Source: Hypomesus transpacificus
Taxonomy: Eukaryota; Chordata; Actinopteri; Osmeriformes; Osmeridae
Direction of reading: 5' to 3'
Length of the DNA: 64,000 nucleotides
NCBI RefSeq assembly: GCF_021917145.1
Contig: NC_061074.1
Location: 9,380,155-9,444,154, forward strand
Positions 10,983-61,833 of the stretch are shown here, in pieces. The notes beneath the pieces are model-generated. The model searched no databases. It was given only the letters and a program-made list of their open reading frames with translations, and was not told the DNA's origin. The first letter of the stretch is position 1, and each line of letters opens with the position of its first letter. A program made the translations under genes and the position numbers.

Positions 10983-11600
10983 AGCAGGATGTCAATGAAA
11001 AAGATCCAAAAACAAACAACAACAATCATTACAAAATACTAGCTGTAGTTTCCCTTTAGAGATCCTACCTCAGAGGAAAGTCCAGTCATTTTGTTAAAGT
11101 TTTCTGACCAGGCATTAAATGACTAACAGTGTATTATGTTATCCAACATTTGTAAGATAGGTTTTTGGTTTATTGTCAGTGGTTTGTTGTTTAGTTTTTT
11201 GTTCCATTGTTTTGTTCCATCCGTAGTTTGAACTCAGTTACATTGGCAACGTATGCTGCAAAACTAACCTGGTCTGGGGCAGGCTTACTGTCAGGCTTGG
11301 ACCGTGTTGTTGCTTAACCAGACGTTCCTGTAACACTGACCCAATGGGAAAACAATCATTCACCACAGTCTTTCTGGTGTAATGTACATTTATAGAAAAA
11401 TATACTTACATTTATGAAAGGATGTATGCATTAAATTCAAGATTTAAGATTTTTATTTGTCACATACATGATTATACATGGTACAATATGCAGTGAAAGG
11501 TGTTGTTGTACCTGAAACCACTTAAATAAAATAGATTAAAGGAGACAATGCTGAACAATGATTTCAGAATGAAACAAACCTGCAAACAAACAACCTCGCT

Positions 11601-11925
11601 ATTGACCATAGGCCCCACCCTAGTCTGTCCTCCTTTTGACCATAGGCCCCACCCTAGTCTGTCCTCCTATTGACCATAGGCCCCACCCTAGTCTGTCCTC
11701 CTTTTGACCATAGGCCCCACCCTAGTCTGTCCTCCTTTTGACCATAGGCCCCACCCTAGTCTGTCCTCCTTTTGACCATAGGCCCCACCCTAGTCTGTCC
11801 TCCTTTTGACCATAGGCCCCACCCTAGTCTTTCCTCCTATTGACCATAGGCCCCACCCTAGTCTGTCCTCCTATTGACCATAGGCCCCATCCTAGTCTGT
11901 CCTCCTATTGACCTCGCTCTAGGCC
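11601..11925. repeat. 34-bp minisatellite, about 10 copies
   Basis: The unit is ttgaccataggccccaccct followed by agtctgtcctccta or ...cctt. The offset between ccata motifs is 34 bases. It abuts the 3' end of the sulfotransferase coding region, so the last copies may lie in its 3' UTR. Confidence 0.95.
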
Positions 11926-11930
11926 CCGCA

Positions 11931-12827
11931 CTAGACTGTCCTACTGGCTTCCTTTGCCTTTCCTGGACCTGATTGGTTCATCCTGGCCTGATGCTTTGAT
12001 GCAGCCTTCCTGGCAGCTTGTACGTGCTTGGCCGCTAGCTCTGGGAACTGCTTGGTGTACAGAGCCTTCGTGTATGTGAGTTCTGGAGTGATGAGCTTCT
12101 GGCAGAAAGTTCTGTCAGGGCCGTCCAACCCCGGGTTCAAGTTGTAACCTTGGATAACGGCTGTGCCGTATTGGAATGGCTTCAGCTCGGTATCTTTGAC
12201 CTGTGAAGGGTCAACTGCCCTGCCCTCTTTGAGGCAAGTTCTTGTCAGCTGGGCGCGTCGTTCCTGCAACTGAGCCACCTCTCGCTTCATCTCCTCCCGA
12301 CCCACCAAAGTGTCCACTCTTCTCCAGAAGGTGGCGTTAAAGTGCAGGTAGACACGCCAGTCGAGGGCGTTCCAGGTTCGGATCTTGTCAGCAGTGAGTG
12401 ACGAGACAGTGCGGCGTGAGCCTTGATTGCGGCTATTAAGTCTGAAGGAGACCACATCATCCAGCGACCAGCAGAGGGCGTATTTGAGCAGGATCATTGA
12501 CTCATCAAAGTGCTCGGATATAAGAATGAGTTGGAAATCATGCTGAATTGCAGTTATCACATTGGAAGCCATTTTCTCCAAGCCAGGGTTGTCTGCAGCG
12601 ATGTTGTTGTCAAAACCAAAGTCGTAAGACAGGAGGTTGCGTGCGTAGTGGTTGCCAGGTAGAGACATGTTGAAATGACTTGAACCGTTGCCCAGGAAGT
12701 CATCAAGATTTTTACTCTTGACAAACGCTGGGCTGCTTTTGTAGTACATGAACACTGACTCCATCATGTCCACAGGATTCCTCAGTATAGAGAAGTAGAA
12801 TGAGTCTTCAGGCATAACCTTCCTCAC
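11931..12827 (-). CDS. gal3st: gal3st coding exon 4 (C-terminal catalytic half)
   Basis: Acceptor TTTCTCTCAG| precedes GTGAGGAAGG, so the exon begins with Val, not an initiator. It contains FSILRNPVDMMESVF (3'-phosphate-binding segment) and the conserved family C-terminal half, with WRVYLHFNATFW and LKPFQYGTAVIQGYNLNPG. The C-terminus is Lys/Ala-rich (AKHVQAARKAASKHQ). Confidence 0.92.
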   Translation of the reverse strand: MRKVMPEDSFYFSILRNPVDMMESVFMYYKSSPAFVKSKNLDDFLGNGSSHFNMSLPGNHYARNLLSYDFGFDNNIAADNPGLEKMASNVITAIQHDFQLILISEHFDESMILLKYALCWSLDDVVSFRLNSRNQGSRRTVSSLTADKIRTWNALDWRVYLHFNATFWRRVDTLVGREEMKREVAQLQERRAQLTRTCLKEGRAVDPSQVKDTELKPFQYGTAVIQGYNLNPGLDGPDRTFCQKLITPELTYTKALYTKQFPELAAKHVQAARKAASKHQARMNQSGPGKAKEASRTV

Positions 12828-22584: not shown

Positions 22585-22857
22585 GCCCTGCGCCAGCTTT
22601 TACACATCTATAATCTCCAGCCTGTAGCGCAAATAATATAACATCAGCATTAGATTCATGTGATAATAACACCCAACAGCTAAAGCCTAATTACACGTTT
22701 GTTATAGGCCTAATGGTACGTTTTTCATGGAAAGAATGTCTTCTACAGCCTCAACATTGTTGATCTTTAAAGTTTCCAGTTTCCCTTCTGAAGGGGAGGT
22801 GCCAGAATATTTCCGAAATTTGACCTCAGGCTCAGTCTGTTAACAACTCAAGAGTCA

Positions 22858-23565
22858 GGTGAGAGGAGAGGGGGTGAGAGAGGGGCAGGTGAGAGGAGAG
22901 GGGCAGGTGAGAGGAGAGGGGGTGAGAGAGGGGCAGGTGAGAGGAGAGGGGGTGAGAGAGGGGCAGGTGAGAGGAGAGGGGGTGAGAGAGGGGCAGGTGA
23001 GAGGAGAGGGGGTGAGAGAGGGGCAGGTGAGAGGAGAGGGGGTGAGAGAGGGGCAGGTGAGAGGAGAGGGGGTGAGAGAGGGGCAGGTGAGAGGAGAGGG
23101 GGTGAGAGAGGGACAGGTGAGAGGAGAGGGGGTGAGAGAGGGGCAGGTGAGAGGAGAGGGGGTGAGAGAGGGGCAGGTGAGAGGAGACGGGGTGAGAGAG
23201 GGGCAGGTGAGAGGAGAGGGGGTGAGAGATGGGCAGGTGAGAGGAGAGGGGGTGAGAGAGGGGCAGGTGAGAGGAGAGGGGGTGAGAGAGGGGCAGGTGA
23301 GAGGAGAGGGGGTGAGAGAGGGGCAGGTGAGAGGAGAGGGGGTGAGAGAGGGGCAGGTGAGAGGAGAGGGGGTGAGAGAGGGGCAGGTGAGAGGAGAGGG
23401 GGTGAAAGAGGGGCAGGTGAGAGGAGAGGGGGTGAGAGAGGGGCAGGTGAGAGGAGAGGGGATGAGAGAGGGGCAGGTGAGAGGAGAGGGGCAGGTGAGA
23501 GAGGGGCAGGTGAGAGGAGAAGGGGTGAGAGAGGGGCAGGTGAGAGGAGAGGGGGTGAGGTGTAG
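22858..23565. repeat. 30-bp purine minisatellite, about 23 copies
   Basis: The unit is ggtgagaggagagggggtga plus gagaggggca (30 bases), highly homogeneous, with short variant units at both ends. There are no stops on either strand, so about 240- to 300-codon frames appear in both directions. These are artefacts. Each unit contains GCAG|GTGAGA (donor-like) and several G-runs. Confidence 0.96.
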
Positions 23566-47168: not shown

Positions 47169-47419
47169 TCACTGCTCGTCTTCCGGCTGGTCTGTCCAAG
47201 TACCAAAGAAGTTGGAGACTTTGGGAGTGCGCCTGCCCCCCCTGGAAGCCCCCCTGGAGCCCCCCCTGGGTCCGGAGGAGGAGCCCCCCTGAGCCTGGTG
47301 GATCCGCTGGCACTCGCGCAGGTTCTGGGCTCGGACCTCTTGGTTCTGGATCTCCTCCACCACACGGCTGGGGAACCAGCCCCGCTCACCATCGTGGAGC
47401 CGCTCTCCCATCATCCAGC
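47169..47419 (-). CDS. ngef: ngef last coding exon, end of SH3 and C-terminus
   Basis: Acceptor CCCCCCAG|. It encodes [17 protein letters not shown] then [16 protein letters not shown], completing the SH3, and a Gly/Ser/Arg-rich tail with [18 protein letters not shown]. It ends PEDEQ then TGA at 47171-47169. Confidence 0.93.
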
Positions 47420-50400: not shown

Positions 50401-53400
50401 CATACTGTCACGTCATACTGTCACATGTCTCTGTCACGTCATACTGTCATGTCATACTGTCACATGTCTCTGTCACGTCATACTGTCACATGTCTCTGTC
50501 ACATCATACTGTCACGTCATGCTGTCACGTCATACTGTCACGTCATACTGTCACGTCATGCAGTCACGTCATACTGTCATGTCATACTGTCATGTCATGC
50601 TGTCACGTCATGCTGTCACGTCATACTGTCACATCATACTGTCATGTCATACTGTCACGTCATACTGTCACGTCATACTGTCATGTCACACTGTCACGTC
50701 ATACTGTCACGTCATACTGTCACATGTCTCTGTCACGTCATACTGTCATGTCATACTGTCACATGTCTCTGTCACGTCATACTGTCACGTCATACTGTCA
50801 CGTCATACTGTCATGTCATACTGTCATGTCATACTGTCACGTCATGCTGTCACATCATACTGTCACGTCATGCTGTCACGTCATACTGTCACGTCATACT
50901 GTCACGTCATGCTGTCACGTCATACTGTCATGTCATACTATCACATGTCTCTGTCACGTCATACTGTCATGTCATACTGTCACATGTCTCTGTCACGTCA
51001 TACTGTCACGTCATACTGTCACGTCATACTGTCATGTCATACTGTCATGTCATACTGTCATGTCATACTGTCACATGTCTCTGTCACGTCATACTGTCAC
51101 GTCATACTGTCACGTCATACTGTCACGTTTCTCTGTCACATCATACTGTCACGTCTCTCTGTCACATCATACTGTCACATGTCTCTGTCATGTCATACTG
51201 TCACGTCATATTGTCACATCATACTGTCACGTCTCTCTGTCACGTCATACTGTCACATCATACTGTAACGTCATGCTGTCACGTCATACTGTCACGTCAT
51301 GCTGTCATGTCTCTCTGTCACGTCATACTGTCACGTCATACTGTCACATGTCTCTGTCACGTCATACTGTAACATCATGCTGTCACGTCTCTCTGTCACG
51401 TCTCTCTGTCACGTCATACTGTCATGTCATACTGTCACGTCTCTCTGTCTCAGGGAAAGACTAGGCAGCATGTATAGAAAGCATGTTTTCAAATTTGGCT
51501 CAATGATACAACAGGTCAATCACTACTCCCAGACCGCTAATGGCCCACATACGCCGGTTTCCAAACGGTTTCCAAACCTCATTGGCTTCAATATGACATC
51601 CCTCTGAAGTACCATGCACCATTTCAACTTGGTAAGTCAAAATATGATGGAATTACAGCTGTTTAAACTTTGTCCAAAAGCTGACCAAAGCTAATACTCT
51701 TCCCTTTCTATTCATAAAAACGAAATAGTTGATGTGTAGCAGAGAGGATAGAGAGGCTGACTAGCAACCACATGCTCTGACTAGCAACCACATGCCCTGA
51801 CTAGCAACCACATGCTCTGACTAGCAACCACATGCTCTGACTAGCAACCACATGCTCTGACTAGCAACCACATGCTCTGACTAGCAACCATATGCTCTTG
51901 AGTTTGAATCTCCATGCAGCCTGTTGTTGTTTGCCACGCATGAATACATTTAGTTCTGTTGTTGTCCAACTCTTGACCTTCTACAATGTACATTTTATTT
52001 TGAAGAGGAACCTGCATCGCTGCTTGCAGCTCTATTTTTGCTTATTTCTGTTTTATTTTGCTTATTTCTTTAATTGCTGCTACCTCGTTGACCGTAGTCT
52101 TGTCTTAAGCATTTTATTGTCACTGACTATTTGCTGAATAAAACATTTAGTGTTTTACAGTACCTTGGATTTGAACTCCAGTGTTTTCTCGATGCTGATG
52201 AGTTCCTCGGTGCGACTCATCTTCCTCACACCCTCGTTACACTCCTTCACAATCTGAGAAACACAGAAAAAACCCTGTACTGACACAGGGGCAGAAACAG
52301 CCCAGAACTGACACAGGGGCAGAAACAGCCCAGAACTGACACAGGGGCAGAAACAGCCCAGAACTGACACAGGGGCAGAAACAGCTTTACAGAACACAGT
52401 TCTGCATCATAAAACCTTGTACTGACACAGAGGCAACACCTGCCATGTTGAACAACTATCTGCAGACAATCTTCAAATAAGAATTATAATGAATGTTGTA
52501 GTTATTTGTGTATCCTTAAAATTAAAAAAGCAATAAGAAGCTTCACTAAAATAAACTACATAGCAATACATATGGTAACAAGGGTATAGAGGTATAATAT
52601 TTTGCATAAGTGAAACTTGGTATGGGAGAGGTTGGGCTTTCCAGAGGTAAGTGGAGGCTAATATTGATCTTGTTTTGTTAACACAACCTTCAACTCCCCC
52701 TTCACAATATCCTCACCCTCCCCCACACTGGGCCTTCTGACACGTTTGTATGTAAGTAACTTTCTGAACAAAATTAACTTTGCTTCAAACCCTCACAACA
52801 TTTTTCTACCTTCTCCACCCTTCTTCAGGTCCAGCCAAGCATTCCTAAGTGCCGCTGTACTCCTGGAACAAGTGCGTCTTGAGCCTTTTCTTGAAGGTGG
52901 AGACAGTCTGTGATGGAGGAGGGGAGTTGATTCCACCACTGGGAGGCCAGACAGGAGAAGAGCTTGTCTTGGGAACGGGCGATCTTGAACGGTGGGGCCA
53001 CCAGGCGGTTGTCTGAAGAAGACCGTAGGTGGCGGGTGGGGGTGTAAGGCTGCAGGAGAGACTTGATGTAGTCGGTGCAGTCCCGTTCACTGCTCGGAAG
53101 GTCAGTACCAGGGTTTTGAATCTGATGAGGGCCGTGATGGGTAGCCAGTGGAGGGAGATGAGGAGCGGGGTAACATGGGAGCGTCTGGGTAGATCAGTGG
53201 CGGTTCTGGCACATTGCGCGCCCAGGGCAAGTTTATCACTTGCACCCCCCCCCCCCTCCCGGGAGAAAGAAATCCCCCGAGAGCCCCCAGAACGAGCACT
53301 GCTACTACCTGGCTGCGACATACGAACACAAAACTGCTGCACGGCAAGCAGGGGTGCCTGCAGCTGCCTGAAGAGGGCGCCAATATGCCAATTCCCCACA

Positions 53401-56400
53401 AACTGAAATGATCGATAAGAGAAAACCGCGCAGAGATTTCTTTTTTTTTAAATGCTTCAGCGCCCCCCACGTGACATGAGAAAATGCCCCCCCGGTCTGC
53501 CCGTGCCTAAAACCGCCCCTGGGGTAGATTGTAGATCAGGTAGGCCTCTGAAGAGGGCGGGTTATGCATGGTGGGATTCAGAACACCTGGTGGTCCCACC
53601 GTTCAAGACCGCCCGGTCCCAACACAAGCTCTTCTCCCGTCTGGCCCCCCAGTGGTGGAATCAACTGCCCACCTCCATCAGAGACACTGACTGTCTCCCC
53701 ACCTTCGAGAAAAGGCTCAAGACACAATTGTTCCGGGAGTACAACGGTACTTAGGAATGGTTTGCTGGACCCGATGTTAGTTTCCTCAAGGATCACAATG
53801 ACTCTTGCTTAGCACTTGTTGCTCTTGTTGATTTAAACTGATTTAAATTGTTGTACTCGCTGTGAAATATTTTTTACTGCTGCTTGCTTTTTTACAGGTA
53901 CACTTGCACTTGTAGCAATTCATGTTGTTTAATTGTAACTTGTTTAACTACATGCTCTTATGGTTCTTCCCTTTGGCACTTATTTTGGTTGTTCACAATA
54001 TGTGCTTCATGTTTTGGCTACCCGCAATGTTTTTGGGGCTATCTTGTTGTTATTATCAGTGACCTATGCACTTTGTAAAACTCTCTCTTGGAAGTCGCTT
54101 TGGATGAAAGCGTCTGCTGAATGAATAAATGTAAATGCAAGTAATGTAACCTTTATATAAAGTTATGCTATGTGCTTACAATGGTGGTTAATGTTGCCTT
54201 AATGTAAAGTGTTGCCATACAGTTAAATGGTAGCTAATGTAACCTTAATTTAGAGTGTTGTCAAAAATAATCTTAAGCAGTTCCAAGTTTCAAAACCAAA
54301 CCCCACAATGATCTGTACAAGTTAGAAACAACATTCCATTGAATTGAGCCAGGTGATGGTTTCTATCCAGTATCATTCCATGGGAGTCAGAGACAGGTGT
54401 GACAGCCATTGTCAGAACCAACTGTGTTGTTGATCATTTGTGAGCGACCACACCCTGAATGTTCCTAGGCATGAGGGTTAGGGTTAAGCTACCGGGTTAA
54501 GAATGAGGGCTAGGATGAGGAGGGCTAGGATGAGGGCTAGGATGAGGAGGGCTAAGATGAGGGCTAGGATGAGGAGGGCTAAGATGAGGATGAGGGCTAG
54601 GATGAGGGCTAGGATGAGGATGAGGGCTAGGATGAGGAGGGCTAGGATGAGGGCTAGGATGAGGAGGGCTAAGATGAGGATGAGGGCTAGGATGAGGGCT
54701 AAGATGAGGAAGGCTAGGATGAGGGCTAGGATGAGGAAGGCTAAGATGAGGGCTAGGATGAGGAGGGCTAAGATGAGGATGAGGGCTAGGATGAGGGCTA
54801 GGATGAGGATGAGGGCTAGGATGAGGAGGGCTAGGATGAGGGCTAGGATGAGGAGGGCTAAGATGAGGATGAGGGCTAGGATGAGGGCTAAGATGAGGAA
54901 GGCTAGGATGAGGGCTAGGATGAGGAGGGCTAAGATGAGGGCTAGGATGAGGAGGGCTAAGATGAGGGCTAGGATGAGGGCCAGGGTTACCTGCTCCAGC
55001 AGCTGGTGAGCCTTGATGGCGTTGGCCTCCCTCTCTGAGCTCTCCTCCGCTTTCTTCAGGATGTTCTATGAAGCAACACAGAAGACTCGCTCAAACTCTG
55101 ACGTTGATAATACCGTCCCCTGCTGGGGTGTTTCCTTGACATCGTCACAGCCATCACTCAACGACTGGCTGTAAAAACAAACAGATTCACTGCACCGTCA
55201 CAACTTTCAACCCATGCCGGTGATTCACCAGAATCACCTGAGAACTATGCTGTTCCTTTCAGCAATTTGGGATTCAGATGGACAATTACACCAAACGTGT
55301 CATAACACATGTACTTTATACACAGCCCTTCCTATGCTGGAAGTTCAGAGCGGCTGTTTAACTCACTGACCTGAACCACCAGCTCCTGTTTGACTCACTG
55401 ACCTGAACCACCAGCTCCTGTTTGACTCACTGACCTGAACCACCAGCTCCTGTTTGACTCACTGACCTGAACCACCAGCTCCTGTTTGACTCACTGACCT
55501 GAACCACCAGCTCCTGTTTGACTCACTGACCTGAACCACCAGCTCCTGTTTGACTCACTGACCTGGACCAGCAGCTCCTGTTTGACTTACTGACCTGAAC
55601 CACCAGCTCCTGTTTGACTCACTGACCTGAACCACCAGCTCCTGTTTGACTCACTGACCTGAACCAGCAGCTCCTGTTTGACTCACTGACCTGAACCACC
55701 AGCTCCTGTTTGACTCACTGACCTGAACCACCAGCTCCTGTTTGACTCACTGACCTGAACCACCAGCTCCTGTTTGACTTACTGACCTGAACCACCAGCT
55801 CCTGTTTGACTCACTGACCTGAACCACCAGCTCCTGTTTGACTCACTGACCTGAACCACCAGCTCCTGTTTGACTCACTGACCTGAACCAGCAGCTCCTG
55901 TTTGACTCACTGACCTGAACCACCAGCTCCTGTTTGACTCACTGACCTGGACCACCAGCTCTTGTTTGACTCACTGACCTGAACCACCAGCTCCTGTTTG
56001 ACTCACTGACCTGAACCAGCAGTTTGAGCCGGGTGATCCTCTGGAAGGGGAGGATGAGGAAGGATGTGAAGGACAGGCCTCGGACCCGGGAGTGGTTTTC
56101 CAGCCCAGCCATGGTCTCACGGAACGCCTGGTTTCCCTGTCTGGGCCCACACATTAAACCATGTGAAGATTGTCAGAAGGTTAGCAGTGAACACATACAG
56201 TAAATGTTGTTGCACTATTTGCACGTCACTTTGGATTAAAAAACACTTCAACTAACAATAACAAAATGTAAATGGTAAATTTGTCATCAGAAAACAGACG
56301 TACTACAAACATACCACATTTTAATAGTCTCTATAAACATAGACCACAGTGAAATAATCTCTACAAACATAGACCACAGTTGAGTAGTCTCTACACAGAG

Positions 56401-59400
56401 CCAGCTTGATTTCCACTAAGATTCTGGATGTATAGAAGGTCATATTAAACCCATAGTTTATTTTCTTAATCAATATTATTATTGATTATTAGGTGTGACC
56501 GTAGCTTGTGTCAGTGTGCCTCACAACAAGTCGTCTCAGGTCAGTTTACAACAATCACCTTCAAAAACAGTCAACAGATTTAGTCAATTAAGTATAGCTA
56601 ACTTTTCTATCTGACTTTAGAGGACTGTTAGATTCTAATAAGAAAAGTTAACTCTCATAACAGGTAGGATAAAACATCAGCATTCAAACCATGAGGCTTT
56701 GTTTGTATGACCCAACATCCACCACAACCTGTCTATGCGTCTCCCTCTCCTGACAGTTCAGTCAGCCAGCCACCAGGGGACCCTGATCCTGTGGTCCATT
56801 TTTACATTTTATAAAAGTGTTTTGCATAGAGGCCAGGGGGAGAGCGTAACAATAGCCTTTGTTTGTTCCCCAGAGCTGCAGTGCAGCTTGACGGTAATCT
56901 GCTCTGGTATGACCGCAGCAGAAACCTCTTAAGAGTCCCTCAGGTTCGGAAGGGTTTGCTCACTTGCGTGGCATGAAGATGGACAGTACATCTGTCAGAG
57001 GATTGTCATACATCACAGACTGACAATAACAACAAAACCTGCCATCCTGTCAGATCTCTACATTAGAACCTGCCATCCAGTCAGACAGGGAGATCTCTAT
57101 GTTAACAGTTTCCCTGTTAAAGTCTCATGATCTCACTGAGATTTGGATGTTATGGTCACTACTGCTCCCGATTTACACACTGTGTCTCTTTCCTACATAC
57201 ACACACACTCGCGTGCACTCACACACACACTCACACACAAACTCACACACACATTCTCCATGAGAGGACGTTAGGGTGAGATGAGGAGAGACGCTGGCCC
57301 TGTTCACCATCGAGACCACAGACACAGCAACACACACACTCACACAAAGACATACAATACTCTGTTTTCTCACACACACCTTTGCCCTTATGAACACATG
57401 ACTGAGCGGCATGTTATTATAGCAAAGGGGTGTGGTTGTATTGTTCTCATAGCTGCCAGTCACACAAGTCTGTCAGTGGACTGTCCTGTTCCGCAGACAG
57501 ACAGCCGGAATGCTGTCAGTCTGACTCTACAGTGGTAAAACTAGGCCCAGAAATATAAACGTTGTATTGCTTTAGTCTGGTTCTATATCATGTCACGTCT
57601 GTGTGGTCAGCCGTTAACCAGATATGGCATGTAACAGCTGTGGTTAGTAGAATTGATGGGCTTGACCATGAAAAAACACAATTCTGTGTTAGGGTTAGTA
57701 AAATTGCTGATTTCAGAATGGCTTTGCCTGACAAACCATATGCTCAAAGCCCCACCACCATGAACCACGAGAGATGACAAAGCTGAAATCATCAGTAAGA
57801 GACAGTGTTTCACCCACAGGATGCGTCGGTAGTTCTTCTCCTGGTAGACCTGGTTGATGACGTAGGCGATGAACACGTGGAAGTGCTCCCTGGCGTGGAG
57901 GCAGACGATGTCACAAACGTCGGAGATCTGGATCGACTGCTCAATGCGGTTCTCCAGGTCCATCAGGAACCTGGCAGGATGTGACATCATCAGACAGGGA
58001 CAGCAAAACAAGGGTTGCATCAATAGGTGCGTTCGACATGACCCGACATGCGGGGTCTCACACACGACAACTTTGACGTGTGTTTTGTATTAATGGGACA
58101 CCTTCAGTTTCGCCAATGCTCAAATCCGGACCAAACAGTTGAATTGAATTAAACATTTATGGGAGAAAGGGTTTTACTCCGCTTCTTCACTAACGAAAAG
58201 ACTACGTTTAATTATAAATAGAGTAAAGTAAGCAAACAGCGCCGTGACTGACGTCAGCGCAGCAAACCACGAGAAGCTGAAATGTCCGACTTCACAGAGC
58301 CGTTTTCAACTCCTCCCCGACTGCAAGCGGCTACTCTCGCCGGTCGTTTCATGCAGCTGCAGTCCATGTCAAACGCACCTAATGGCTTGTTAAACAGTAT
58401 TGTTACCATAATTATTGAGGGTGTTAACTAGTTAATGGTTCACTGATCTAAGCCGTCTCGATTCTATTTCTAAAATACAGTATTTGACGTATTGTTGGAG
58501 GCACAGTATCTACAGCTAGGGCCTAATTATACCAAATAACAAAGCAACCACAGAATGAATAATCGTTTTACCTTTCACTGGCTTTCATCACCTCTTCAAT
58601 ATTTGAAAACAGGAAGTGCATGTCTGATTGGCTGAGAGTGTTGACCAGCCCCGGGTTCCGCAGGAAGTGAGTCTCCAGGACCTCCAGGCTCTTGTAGTAG
58701 GACGCCTCAGACGTCACCAGCTCAAACATGGCCTTGGAGACAGGACCAGAAATATGTCACCAAAGTATAGATTATAAAGTACATCCATACCACATTCACT
58801 GGGTACACTCACTAAAAGTTTCCATTCCAGATCATGATCTGTCTACATGACCTACCTGGCCCTCTCTTTCCGCCCTTGACCCCCCGCCCTCCCCCGGGTA
58901 GACCTTCAGCCTTCGCCCTCACCTCCCCTGGGTAGACCTTCAGCCTTCGCCCTCACCTCCCTCCCCCTGGGTAGACCTTCAGCCTTCGCCCTCACCTCCC
59001 TCCCCCGGGTAGACCTTCAGCCTTCGCCCTCACCTCCCTCCCCCGGGTAGACCTTCAGCCTTCACCCTCACCTCCCTCCCCCTGGGTAGACCTTCAGCCT
59101 TCGCCCTCACCTCCCTCTCCCAGGTAGACCTTCAGCCTTCACCCTCACCTCCCTCTCCCAGGTAGACCTTCAGCCTTCACCCTCACCTCCCTCCCCCTGG
59201 GTAGAACTTCAGCCTTCGCCCTCACCTCCCTCTCCCGGGTAGACCTTCAGCCTTCACCCTCACCTCCCCTGGGTAGACCTTCAGCCTTCACCCTCACCTC
59301 CCTCTCCCAGGTAGACCCTCAGCCTTCACCCTCACCTCCCTCTCCCAGGTAGACCTTCAGTCTTCACCCTCACCTCCCTCCCCCTGGGTAGACCTTCAGC

Positions 59401-61833
59401 CTTCGCCCTCACCTCCCTCCCCCTGGGTAGACCTTCAGCCTTCGCCCTCACCTCCCCCGGGTAGACCTTCAGCCTTCGCCCTCACCTCCCTCCCCCGGGT
59501 AGACCTTCAGCCTTCACCCTCACCTCCCTCCCCCTGGGTAGACCTTCAGCCTTTGCCCTCACCTCCCTCTCCCGGGTAGATCTTCAGCCTTCACCCTCAC
59601 CTCCCTCCCCCGGGTAGACCTTCAGCCTTCACCCTCACCTCCCTCCCCCTGGGTAGACCTTCAGCCTTCACCCTCACCTCCCTCCCCCGGGTAGACCTTC
59701 AGCCTTCACCCTCACCTCCCCCGGGTAGACCTTCAGCCTTCACCCTCACCTCCCTCCCCTAGTAGACCTTCAGCCTTCGCCCTCACCTCCCTCCCCCCGG
59801 GTAGACCTTCAGCCTTCACCCTCACCTCCCTCCCCTAGTAGACCTTCAGCCTTTGCCCTCACCTCCCTCCCCCCGGGTAGACCTTCAGCCTTCACCCTCA
59901 CCTCCCCCGGGTAGACCTTCAGCCTTCACCCTCACCTCCCTCCCCTAGTAGACCTTCAGCCTTCGCCCTCACCTCCCTCCCCCCGGGTAGACCTTCAGCC
60001 TTCACCCTCACCTCCCTCCCCCCGGGTAGACCTTCAGCCTTCACCCTCACCTCCCTCCCCCCGGGTAGACCTTCAGCCTTCGCCCTCACCTCCTGGATGA
60101 TGATCTCCCTCTGGGGCAGCAGTTCCAGCAGCCCGCTGTGCTGCACGGCCTCCAGGTTCTGCCACAGGCTGAGGGAGCGAGTGTTGTTCCTCAGCTGCAG
60201 CTGCAGGGCCGGGGGCGAGGTGGCCCCCCCGCCCCCCCCTGGGCCCCCCGGGCCGGGAGACGTTACCCCCGTCACGCTGCCGACGCTGCTCGATCTCTTG
60301 CTGTTTGGATGTGTCCCGGTACTCCTGGTACAGGAAGGCTGGAGGGATGAGAATAATAACGATAACGAAAATATTAACAACAATAGCAATAATAATAATA
60401 ACAACAATAATAAGAAGAATAATGAGAATAGTATTAGCAACAATAATGATAACAATAATAAGAATGATAACAGTAATAATAATAACAACAATTATAATAG
60501 ATAATAATAATGATAATGTACATTTTTCTCACCCGTAGTCACTTTTAACCAAAGTAATGTACAAATATAACTTATGTCACTCTGAATATTTTACTAATTA
60601 AAAGGCCTCGACTGACAACTATTCATTGGGAAGATGCTTTTATCCAAAGCAAAGTACACAAGGTATCATGCAGTCAGATCAATCATGAATGCAGAACATG
60701 GCTTCCCCTCCATGCCCACTACCAGCTCCGTCTGAGGAAGGAGGTGAAGGACACTGTGTGTTCATGTACTTCATGTACAAAGAACAATCAGTTCCCTTGT
60801 AACGTTTCTCTCATGCATGGCTGGCATTCTGCTAAAGCTATTCCATGATTTGTGTCTGCATATGGAGTCAGGGAGGGGGGAAAATGGAGGGCGGGGAGGA
60901 TAGGGGGCAGGGAGGGGGGCAGTCAGGGGGTGTGGGGGGGGGGCAGGGAGGGAGGTGGGGACAGGAAGAGGGAGGTGAGGGTAAGTAAGGGACAGGGAGA
61001 GGGAGGTGGGGGCAGGTAGGGGTAGGTAGGGGGCAGGTTCAAGAGAGCAGATTTTTTTCTGAAGCTGGTGATTTCTTACAGAGGAAAAAGGCTGAGTTTG
61101 CACAGCTTATGTCTGTGTCTACATCCTGTGTTGTTTGTGTGCTGCAGGAGGGTTTAGGGTTAGGGTGACTTTGAACGTGTTGCATAAGAACCACCGTCAT
61201 ATTCAGAAACTCACCAAGGTGGGCGTCCGAGCTAACACTTACATAAGAGGCACGGAGAGAGAGAGAAGTGTTACTGAGACACGAGGAAGTAGGAAGAGTA
61301 CATGCAGAGAGAGAAACTTTACAAAGGGAGAGAGAGACTTACTGAGACAGGAGCTGAGAGAGAGAGGGAGAGAGAGAGAAAGAGAGAGAGAAATGGAGAG
61401 AAAGAGAGAGAGAGAAATGGAGAGAAAGAGAGAGAGAGACCTGTATAAGATGAAGTTTGGTGAACACTTTTTACAGTCCATGAATATGAGTCCCTGTTCC
61501 GTCATGTTCAACAGGCATCCTTAGACGGACCCTAGTCTGAACACACCTGTTCTACAACAGTAACATTTAATATTTGATTTATTTACCAGGGGCTTCTCTC
61601 AAAAACTATATCAAATTGTGCATGTAGTGAGCAGCTGGTTTAGCCAGCGAGCAGAGCCTAGTGTTACAGTTACACCCTAACCCCTCTGTGTCTCCACCTC
61701 TACCTCTCCTCCACTCTGTGTTTTCACCTCCACATCTTCTCCTCTCTTCTCACCTATGTTTTTGACGATGTTCAGGGTGTGGCAGATGGACTCGATCTTC
61801 ATCTGAGAAGAGCTCTCTCCGTTGTTTAGTATT
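47169..61833 (-). CDS. ngef: Neuronal Rho guanine-nucleotide exchange factor (ephexin-1), 3' twelve exons
   Basis: Dbl-family GEF that activates RhoA, Rac1 and Cdc42 downstream of EphA receptors in neurons (family knowledge). Twelve exons with GT-AG sites encode, in order, an N-terminal linker ([15 protein letters not shown]), the DH domain ([16 protein letters not shown] to [16 protein letters not shown], with [16 protein letters not shown] as its conserved core helix), the PH domain ([34 protein letters not shown]) and the C-terminal SH3 ([36 protein letters not shown]). The ephexin DH-PH-SH3 order plus the kcnj13 neighbour identify NGEF rather than other ephexins. The stop is at 47169. 5' exons are outside the window. 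One exon (60090-60338) has a one-base frame conflict in a G/C homopolymer. Three introns start with minisatellites. Confidence 0.92.
47600..47704 (-). CDS. ngef: ngef exon, first half of SH3 domain
   Basis: Encodes [17 protein letters not shown] and [17 protein letters not shown], the ALYDY-like first strand (here CIQSYMSQ) and RT loop of the SH3. Acceptor CTCTCAG|, donor TCGATG|GTAAGA. Confidence 0.93.
47809..47888 (-). CDS. ngef: ngef exon, PH C-terminal helix
   Basis: Encodes [18 protein letters not shown], the PH C-terminal helix with its conserved Trp, then TSTSTHQA. Acceptor TTGGCAG|, donor GGCTG|GTGAGC. Confidence 0.92.
48011..48169 (-). CDS. ngef: ngef exon, PH domain
   Basis: Encodes [32 protein letters not shown] and [15 protein letters not shown]. 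Acceptor ATGGTAG|, donor AGCAT|GTAAGC. Phase 2 on both sides. Confidence 0.94.
48418..48581 (-). CDS. ngef: ngef exon, first half of PH domain
   Basis: Acceptor CCTCAG|, donor CTCCAG|GTCAGC. It encodes [16 protein letters not shown], a basic linker [10 protein letters not shown] and [16 protein letters not shown]. It is separated from the previous exon by the intron holding the 13-bp satellite. Confidence 0.94.
48863..48996. repeat. 134-bp direct repeat, left copy
   Basis: Nearly identical to 51603-51736 (one visible difference, aaaagatgacc versus aaaagctgacc). It starts tctgaagtaccatgcaccat and ends gaaatagttgatgtg. Both lie in one ngef intron, either side of the 13-bp satellite. Confidence 0.95.
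49283..49400. repeat. Dispersed repeat, copy 2
   Basis: Second copy of the element at 28509-28625, with catgaaagtttgcacagaca and gaaggtgcatacatt. It has an extra attagctttggccag. Confidence 0.7.
49690..51452. repeat. 13-bp satellite array of about 1.75 kb in an ngef intron
   Basis: Roughly 130 copies of tcatactgtcacg with A/G and C/T variants, interspersed with a longer variant acatgtctctgtcacg that forms higher-order groups. Because 13 is not a multiple of three and the unit has no stop in any plus frame, all three plus frames are open for about 450-570 codons. These are not proteins. The minus strand carries many copies of TGACGTGACAGTA. Confidence 0.97.
51603..51736. repeat. 134-bp direct repeat, right copy
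   Basis: Partner of 48863-48996, in the same orientation. It begins within a few dozen bases of the end of the satellite-adjacent unique segment and ends just before the 20-bp array. Confidence 0.95.
51757..51896. repeat. 20-bp minisatellite, 7 copies
   Basis: The unit is ctgactagcaaccacatgct (20 bases), with one ccctg variant and a final catatgct. Confidence 0.95.
52164..52253 (-). CDS. ngef: ngef exon, end of DH domain
   Basis: 30 codons, [17 protein letters not shown] then [13 protein letters not shown]. Acceptor TTTCTCAG|, donor TCCAAG|GTACTG. It contains the DH C-terminal helix. Confidence 0.93.
52268..52392. repeat. 28-bp minisatellite next to an ngef splice acceptor
   Basis: The unit is acacaggggcagaaacagcc plus cagaactg (28 bases), about 4.5 copies, beginning 15-20 bases upstream of the acceptor of exon 52164-52253. 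Confidence 0.9.
52843..53579 (-). mobile_element. L2-like LINE fragment, interrupted by a hAT MITE
   Basis: The minus strand matches the RT C-terminal and 3' region of the copy at 29990-30400 ([33 protein letters not shown]). It is split at 53195-53521 by a MITE and resumes at 53522-53579 (ctctgaagagggcgggttat). It lies tail-out against a second, oppositely oriented L2 fragment from about 53580. Confidence 0.85.
53195..53521. mobile_element. hAT-like MITE with perfect 8-bp target duplication
   Basis: The left end cagtggcggttctggcac and right end gtgcctaaaaccgcccctg are inverted repeats. The flanks gggtagat (53187-53194) and gggtagat (53522-53529) are a perfect 8-base duplication inside the L2 copy. 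It is 327 bases with a C14 tract and CT-rich interior. Confidence 0.9.
53580..54140 (+). mobile_element. L2-like LINE 3' end with complete tail
   Basis: The plus strand encodes [18 protein letters not shown] then [12 protein letters not shown] and stop. It continues through the whole 3' UTR to tcgctttggatgaaagcgtc and tgaataaatgtaaatg. That tail is the reference for the SINE tails at 7153 and 10788. Confidence 0.88.
54503..54985. repeat. Minisatellite of AGGATGAGGGCT units just inside an ngef intron
   Basis: Units ggctaggatgag, ggctaagatgag and gatgag combine into a higher-order repeat. The array starts about 7-13 bases inside the donor (CAG|GTAACCCTGGCCCTCATCC on the minus strand). The plus frame reads Arg-Ala-Arg-Met repeats, an artefact. 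Confidence 0.95.
54991..55065 (-). CDS. ngef: ngef exon, DH domain
   Basis: 25 codons, [16 protein letters not shown] then IKAHQLLEQ. Acceptor CTTCATAG|, donor GAGCAG|GTAACC. It continues the DH helix directly after LKLLVQ. Confidence 0.93.
55370..56010. repeat. 32-bp minisatellite made of an exon-intron junction
   Basis: The unit is ctgacctgaaccaccagctc plus ctgtttgactca (32 bases), about 20 copies. On the minus strand each unit reads TGGTGGTTCAG|GTCAGTGAGTC. The adjoining exon ends CTGCTGGTTCAG|GTCAGTGAGTC, so about 12 exonic bases plus the donor are repeated. Some units keep the exon version (aaccagcag). Confidence 0.97.
56011..56140 (-). CDS. ngef: ngef exon, DH conserved core
   Basis: Acceptor GGCCCAG|, donor GTTCAG|GTCAGT. 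It encodes [15 protein letters not shown] then [16 protein letters not shown] and VQ, the CR3 helix that contacts the GTPase. Its last dozen bases and the donor are copied in the adjacent 32-bp array. Confidence 0.95.
57818..57970 (-). CDS. ngef: ngef exon, DH domain
   Basis: Acceptor CTGCCAG|, donor ATCCT|GTGGGT (weak). It encodes [33 protein letters not shown] and [15 protein letters not shown], matching the middle of the ephexin DH domain. Confidence 0.92.
58572..58732 (-). CDS. ngef: ngef exon, start of DH domain
   Basis: Acceptor TCTCCAAG|, donor GTGAAAG|GTAAAA. It encodes [16 protein letters not shown], the first conserved DH helix (CR1), then [13 protein letters not shown] and [13 protein letters not shown]. 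Confidence 0.93.
58870..60089. repeat. Minisatellite of 31-38 bp units containing a splice donor
   Basis: Units such as gtagaccttcagccttcgcc plus ctcacctccctcccccgg repeat about 33 times over 1.2 kb. On the minus strand each reads GGGAG|GTGAGGGCGAAGG. The adjoining ngef exon ends CAGGAG|GTGAGGGCGAAGG, so the donor and first intronic bases are the repeat core. Length variants arise from missing ccctccc blocks. Confidence 0.96.
60090..60338 (-). CDS. ngef: ngef exon, linker into DH domain, with apparent frameshift
   Basis: Acceptor CCCTCCAG|, donor CAGGAG|GTGAGG. It begins [17 protein letters not shown] and ends [16 protein letters not shown] with [11 protein letters not shown], both ephexin-like, but the two halves are in different frames. 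The switch falls in a poly-G/C segment at about 60222-60252. The length (249) is one base off what the flanking phases need. Confidence 0.85.
60350..60515. repeat. AAT/AAC-rich microsatellite in an ngef intron
   Basis: Imperfect (AAT)n and (AAC)n trinucleotides with GAT interruptions. It starts close to the acceptor of exon 60090-60338. Confidence 0.9.
60850..61440. repeat. G-rich and GA-rich tracts in an ngef intron
   Basis: GGGGAGG-type runs at 60868-61035 and (GA)n at 61252-61440, separated by unique DNA that includes a short gggttagggt motif at 61150. Confidence 0.85.
61754..61833 (-). CDS. ngef: ngef exon, N-terminal region (first in window)
   Basis: Acceptor TTCTTTCAG|, donor ACATAG|GTGAGA. 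It encodes [15 protein letters not shown] then [10 protein letters not shown]. It joins in phase 1 to the LYQEYRD exon. The upstream partner exon is not visible in the remaining 2 kb. Confidence 0.8.

Follow-up and report, generated by a model that had tools for sequence, protein, structure and literature searches.

Tandem repeats which span exon-intron boundaries have been described from amphioxus under the name "mirages"; excerpts of PMC3087553 report them in globin genes, cite Adh3 as a further case, and state that they do not seem to disturb regular splicing. The excerpted part of PMC3902484 mentions a mirage in troponin C, and repeats of a similar kind in PGBD5. From humans, the minisatellite of IFI6 (G1P3, 6-16) is known to provide multiple splice donors, according to the title of Turri, Cuin and Porter (1995), as cited in PMC2572611 and PMC2915984, and two of the downstream repeat donors are used, as stated in a portion of PMC4526556. 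Internal tandem repeats at exon-intron boundaries were found also in human segmental duplications, where minisatellite variation alters splicing (PMC2812944, in excerpt). As for fishes, an excerpt of PMC3045353 mentions repeat alleles in the first intron of seabream myostatin-2, with a predicted extra acceptor, and minisatellites in growth-hormone introns; thus, intronic minisatellites of fishes are already known. No description of an array which copies a junction was found for any fish in the open-licence literature, which was covered mostly by titles and the beginnings of abstracts.

The 32-bp array of a ngef-like gene of Hypomesus transpacificus, which is described here, belongs to the known "mirage" kind and resembles human IFI6; it is not categorically new. 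As in the amphioxus mirages of Adh3, BflGb6, BflGb9 and troponin C, the unit spans the end of an exon and the start of an intron, and splice signals are copied. The amphioxus mirages occur at 5' and 3' junctions, whereas the fish arrays of this study are situated at 5' junctions. For BflGb6, 6 and 3 units were reported in two haplotypes (PMC3087553, in excerpt); the arrays of the ngef-like gene contain 20 and 31 extra donors and are known from the sequence of one assembly. Unlike the repeats in human segmental duplications, the exon end of the ngef-like gene seems to have been duplicated into an intron that was already present. What is added here is another donor array of this gene, with a possible in-frame use, together with signs of recurrence in the genome.

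The ngef-like gene and its 32-bp array

The window, i.e., the whole stretch of 64,000 nt of H. transpacificus DNA which was analysed, carries on its minus strand a RhoGEF-PH-SH3 gene. Eleven exons were placed, with GT-AG junctions and a reading frame open to its stop; the model takes in the gene without its 5' part. The joined peptide matched the Pfam families RhoGEF (6e-37), SH3 and SOS1/NGEF-like PH (the latter at the cut-off), and structures of ARHGEF16 over residues 8-445 of 449 (1e-90). The name ngef stems from the initial annotation, the match to the SOS1/NGEF-like PH family and a likeness to ephexin sequences. The same window also contains genes for Kir (IRK) and for a galactose-3-O-sulfotransferase, and the load of minisatellites is very high, with 23 arrays occupying 10,246 of the 64,000 bases (merged by hand from TRF output, mostly at scores of 200 or above). 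The features of the first array are as follows (a slash marks the splice junction or its copy).

56011..56136, minus strand: exon D, RhoGEF/DH core, ending in ...LLVQ, phase 0; the 12 terminal bases form the exonic portion of the repeat (Pfam RhoGEF, homology)
56005..56013, minus strand: authentic 5' splice site CAG/GTCAGT (gapless homology over the junction)
55371..56010, minus strand: 20 tandem units of 32 bp, consensus GTCAGTGAGTCAAACAGGAGCTGGTGGTTCAG, each ending in the copied exon end and followed by the copied donor (20 decoys)
55354..55370, minus strand: final partial unit GTCAGTGAGTTAAACAG, probably a remnant of the intron start before the array arose
54991..55065, minus strand: exon E, NILKK...LLEQ, phase 0 (gene model)

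The end of exon D at 56011 is supported by the protein alignment to ARHGEF16, which is without a gap across the junction of exons D and E (LLVQ/NILKK). Twenty consecutive units, each of exactly 32 bp in the sense reading, follow from the first intronic base onwards, as the initial annotation had stated in claiming that the array begins without a gap at the real junction. The call by TRF was 55354-56022, with 20.9 copies of 32 bp and 97% matches. The motif CAG/GTCAGT is present 21 times, once as the real donor and 20 times as a copy, every 32 bp from 56011 to 55371; the claim that the intron array copies the 5' splice site of the exon about 20 times could thus be confirmed.

Each unit comprises 12 exon-like and 20 intronic bases in register, in agreement with the proposed composition of about 12 terminal exonic bases, the donor and the first intronic bases. 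The match to the exon end, whose failure the annotation had named as counter-evidence, amounts to 11 of 12 bases for the consensus unit and to all 12 for unit 4 (55914) and unit 11 (55690). Retention of an exonic variant in some units, as had also been noted, was found for the C of the third-last codon (CTG), which is kept in three of 20 units (4, 11 and 14), in unit 14 (55594) together with another change. Altogether, 15 of the 20 units do not differ from the consensus, and mean identity is 98.75%; variation is confined to four positions with eight substitutions in total, interspersed among the units. The final partial unit equals GAGTTAAACAG, and the sequence departs from the repeat at CCGCTCTG.

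A match to the unit pattern with three mismatches or fewer was not obtained in any of 100 dinucleotide shuffles of the window. A chance match of the unit to the exon end was rejected on account of the register and of the 11-12 matching bases. A 76-base probe of the array, compared with the fish's own assembly (437 Mb), gave at least nine matches, all inside the 32-bp array; a dispersed unit was rejected, since among the matches listed the probe found only the array itself.

Decoy donors and the origin of the array

The row of decoy donors which had been proposed for the sense strand is present, since all 20 units are followed by CAG/GTCAGT. Over positions -3 to +6 the 20 decoys do not differ from the real donor, and because of the identical bases pairing with U1 is the same. 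The real donor has a C at +3, and 6% of the 984 GT sites in the gene, the tying decoys counted, pair with U1 as well or better. A second GT four bases downstream (TCA/GTGAGT) was considered and is not favoured; its pairing with U1 was weaker (-5.7 versus -8.8 kcal/mol) and its use would change the frame.

In the gene model, every one of the 20 decoys leads to a premature stop. Decoys 1 (+32) and 2 (+64) cause a frameshift with a stop in downstream exons, and decoys 3 to 20 all run into a TGA in the third unit, including decoys 3, 6, 9 etc., which lengthen the exon by multiples of 96 bases without a change of frame. The expectation that any decoy would shift the frame was therefore not correct in this form, as every third decoy keeps it; in effect it holds, as all 20 truncate. 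The full reading frame is kept by the first donor alone, and a full-length protein containing the repeat was rejected as a product, since unit 3 contains a TGA and frameshifts also occur. The repeats of IFI6 reportedly consist of 12 bases, are in frame and start at the end of the exon, and two downstream units are used; the unit of the ngef-like array has 32 bases, and in-frame isoforms from downstream donors, as in IFI6, are not predicted for it, with truncation by 20 of 20 decoys.

The conservation of the protein and the published amphioxus cases suggest that the first donor would win, and the expected normal product would be an unchanged ngef mRNA. Exclusive use of this donor is not assured, since splicing of human IFI6 makes use of two downstream repeat donors. 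Use of a decoy should yield a truncated mRNA, which would probably be subject to decay. Introns in which 20-30 identical donors lie 32-39 bp apart represent natural tests of the choice of the spliceosome among equal 5' splice sites; the exon-proximal donor, the intron-proximal donor or a random one could be preferred.

As to the origin of the array, the exon-intron junction is the likely seed, because the array abuts the exon and its units repeat the exon end in register. The same had been proposed in the initial annotation. It is supported by the fact that the stretch of exon D which the unit repeats belongs to the DH core, conserved in the family (Pfam RhoGEF, gapless alignment), for which reason the end of exon D would have come first and the repeat would derive from it; a derivation of the exonic part from the repeat is unlikely, since it encodes LLVQ in the DH core. 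The route itself can be sketched as follows. A short duplication over the 5' splice junction, comprising the last 10-15 or so exonic and approximately the first 17-22 intronic bases, was probably joined at a microhomology of two bases (CT). When the start of the intron, as retained where the array ends, was joined to the exon end, a length of 32 bp and 29 of the 32 bases of a C-variant unit were rebuilt. Breakpoints at intron positions 17, 18, 20, 21 and 22 all scored 29/32, and the CT microhomology lies at breakpoints 20-22; the join is thus bracketed rather than fixed, since five breakpoints score equally. The three differences between the rebuilt seed and the unit require later substitutions. 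Amplification to 20 copies would have followed by slippage or unequal exchange, and then homogenisation. The array would be tolerated because the exon-proximal donor is intact; if this donor is used, all extra copies are removed with the intron. The comparable anatomy of a further junction of the gene and of hmgcr and st7-like junctions elsewhere in the genome speaks for this origin, whereas the mere GGAG that the second array has in common with its exon speaks against it. A "mirage" minisatellite from duplication of an exon end, with an intact proximal donor, is in our judgement a highly probable explanation; since any decoy truncates and its product is a likely target of decay, the array would most likely be neutral or a mild source of mis-splicing.

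Other explanations have to be weighed against this one. The array might be regulatory, in the sense that steady use of extra donors lowers the output of ngef via nonsense-mediated decay and that the copy number tunes expression. The identity of all 20 decoys with the real donor over -3 to +6, the premature stop following from each of them, and the use of downstream repeat donors in human IFI6 (PMC4526556, in part) are in accordance with this notion. However, many 32-bp intronic repeats would give such frames and stops, and the nine donor positions (9/32), which carry none of the eight substitutions, would be expected to carry merely about two, so that a constraint on these positions is not demonstrated. 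A regulatory function appears unlikely to us.

Less probable still is an unrelated intronic minisatellite which expanded up to the exon as to a barrier and whose match to the exon end is a coincidence. The great abundance of tandem repeats in the window (TRF gave 128 rows for its whole length) and the second array of the gene, which has just GGAG in common with its exon, would fit such an origin, but the 11-12 exonic bases in register and the exonic C kept in 3/20 units argue against it, as does the start at the donor side of three of the six large arrays of the gene, where 0.085 would be expected. Inflation of a short junction duplication by the assembler we consider to be even more remote; an identity of 98.75% between units and the proneness of repeats to mis-assembly would be compatible with an artefact, but the variants at four positions are scattered through the units and similar arrays are found at other junctions. 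The copy number may still be wrong.

Further arrays in the same gene

The initial annotation treated the 32-bp array as a lone case, but another donor array starts at a junction of the same gene. This array and others of the gene are listed here.

60090..60338, minus strand: exon A, ending in ...IIIQE/GTGAGG, with a junction of exons A and B gapless to ARHGEF16; the 5' limit is the nearest acceptor that fits
58887-60093, minus strand: second donor array, at the junction after exon A; units of 34-39 bp at 58887..60089, with 31 copies of GAG/GTGAGG after the authentic donor
54503..54985, minus strand: array in the intron after exon E, starting 5 nt after the exon; periods of 12, 27 and 189 bp, without strong copied donors
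52264..52385, minus strand: 28-bp array, whose end lies 10 nt ahead of exon F

The second donor array contains 32 GAG/GTGAGG donors in all, and its exon lies three introns upstream of that of the 32-bp array. Its first three units have 39 bp and are open in frame, and use of the respective decoys would lengthen the protein by 13, 26 or 39 residues; in the model, three of the 31 decoys keep the frame and the other 28 lead to a stop. With three predicted in-frame decoys this array is closer to IFI6. Compared with the 32-bp array, seeding by the junction is less sure here, because just four exonic bases (GGAG) are shared with exon A.

Starts of arrays close to donors were evaluated by random shifts of every array within the intron to which it belongs. 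Three of the six large intronic arrays (TRF score of 200 or above) start at most 6 nt from the donor, versus 0.085 expected (p 2e-5; 200,000 placements), with cut-offs picked after the arrays had been seen and a list of arrays made by hand from TRF output; other cut-offs of score and distance gave p values for the donor side from 1.5e-5 to 7.8e-4. One of 11 arrays (47236-47269) lies in no modelled intron and was dropped. Exons E and F are separated by an intron with an array near each end, 5 nt from its start and 10 nt from its end. An intron gain by a tandem duplication spanning AGGT, which would supply both intron ends, does not fit the 32-bp array; the modelled acceptor at 55066 lies outside the array, 288 bases beyond it.

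Donor arrays elsewhere in the genome

Groups of three CAGGTRAGT words with starts 17-47 bases apart were counted 265 times (127 + 138) in the own assembly (437 Mb), versus 34 (31 + 3) for the backward pattern, where counts are overlapping triples rather than arrays and one array is counted repeatedly. Triples of the GTAAGT form only were found 12 times, versus 22 in the backward control; the excess thus rests on GTGAGT. This result argues against a general rule for donors of every kind, and base composition may lie behind it. By eye, at least about 21 arrays could be discerned among the matches listed (contigs C2-C12), of which 20 were fetched and one on C12 was left out. Arrays near exons were the following.

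C7:9443028-9447218, minus strand: exon end of hmgcr (L046; structure match 1.7e-13), followed by a 26-bp array
C9:845006-849140, minus strand: ST7-family exon (L049; Pfam 1.1e-16), followed by a 42-bp donor array
C10:12782444-12786552, array on the strand opposite to the exon: 20-bp donor-like array (L052), shortly before an exon of cytochrome c heme lyase

In two of the 20 fetched arrays, hmgcr and st7-like, the first donor coincides exactly with the end of an exon supported by homology. In hmgcr, the terminal 13 exonic bases recur in all seven donor-to-donor intervals of its array, and seven exonic bases in all five intervals of the st7-like one. At L048, where the exon is delimited by its open frame alone, without a Pfam match, 13 exonic bases recur in three of four intervals; a further array (L053) seems, by eye alone, to precede an exon on the opposite strand. 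Placement of exons was attempted for the fetched arrays and gave none for the remaining 15 of 20. Peptides from the flanks of L040, L043, L046, L047, L048, L049, L050 and L058, picked for their open frames, were compared with Pfam, and one of eight matched; of two sent to the structure library, one matched.

These data are signs that junction-copying arrays recur in this genome, and the arrays suggest a route from coding edges to minisatellite seeds. Donor junctions might even be recurrent birthplaces of minisatellites in this fish lineage, with a mutational hotspot at CAG/GTGAGT-like junctions giving rise to decoy-donor arrays (in ngef twice, hmgcr, st7-like and others) and to a genome-wide natural library of tandem-donor introns; we put this forward tentatively, as a possibility with somewhat less than even chances. 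Should mirages be common in the genome, the rule of donor choice and the mutational bias could both be read from one RNA data set.

Two other arrays of the window deserve mention. In a 30-bp array at 22850-23559 (plus strand), which begins at AGTCAG/GTGAGAGG, 41 CAG/GTGAGA donor-like sites were counted, versus 9.4 in Markov resamples; an exon was looked for upstream, and none was identified there. At 11594-11950 (minus strand) the end of the galactose-3-O-sulfotransferase frame, stop codon included, resembles by eye a degenerate unit of the 34-bp array which follows, so that here, too, an array may have been seeded by the end of a coding sequence.
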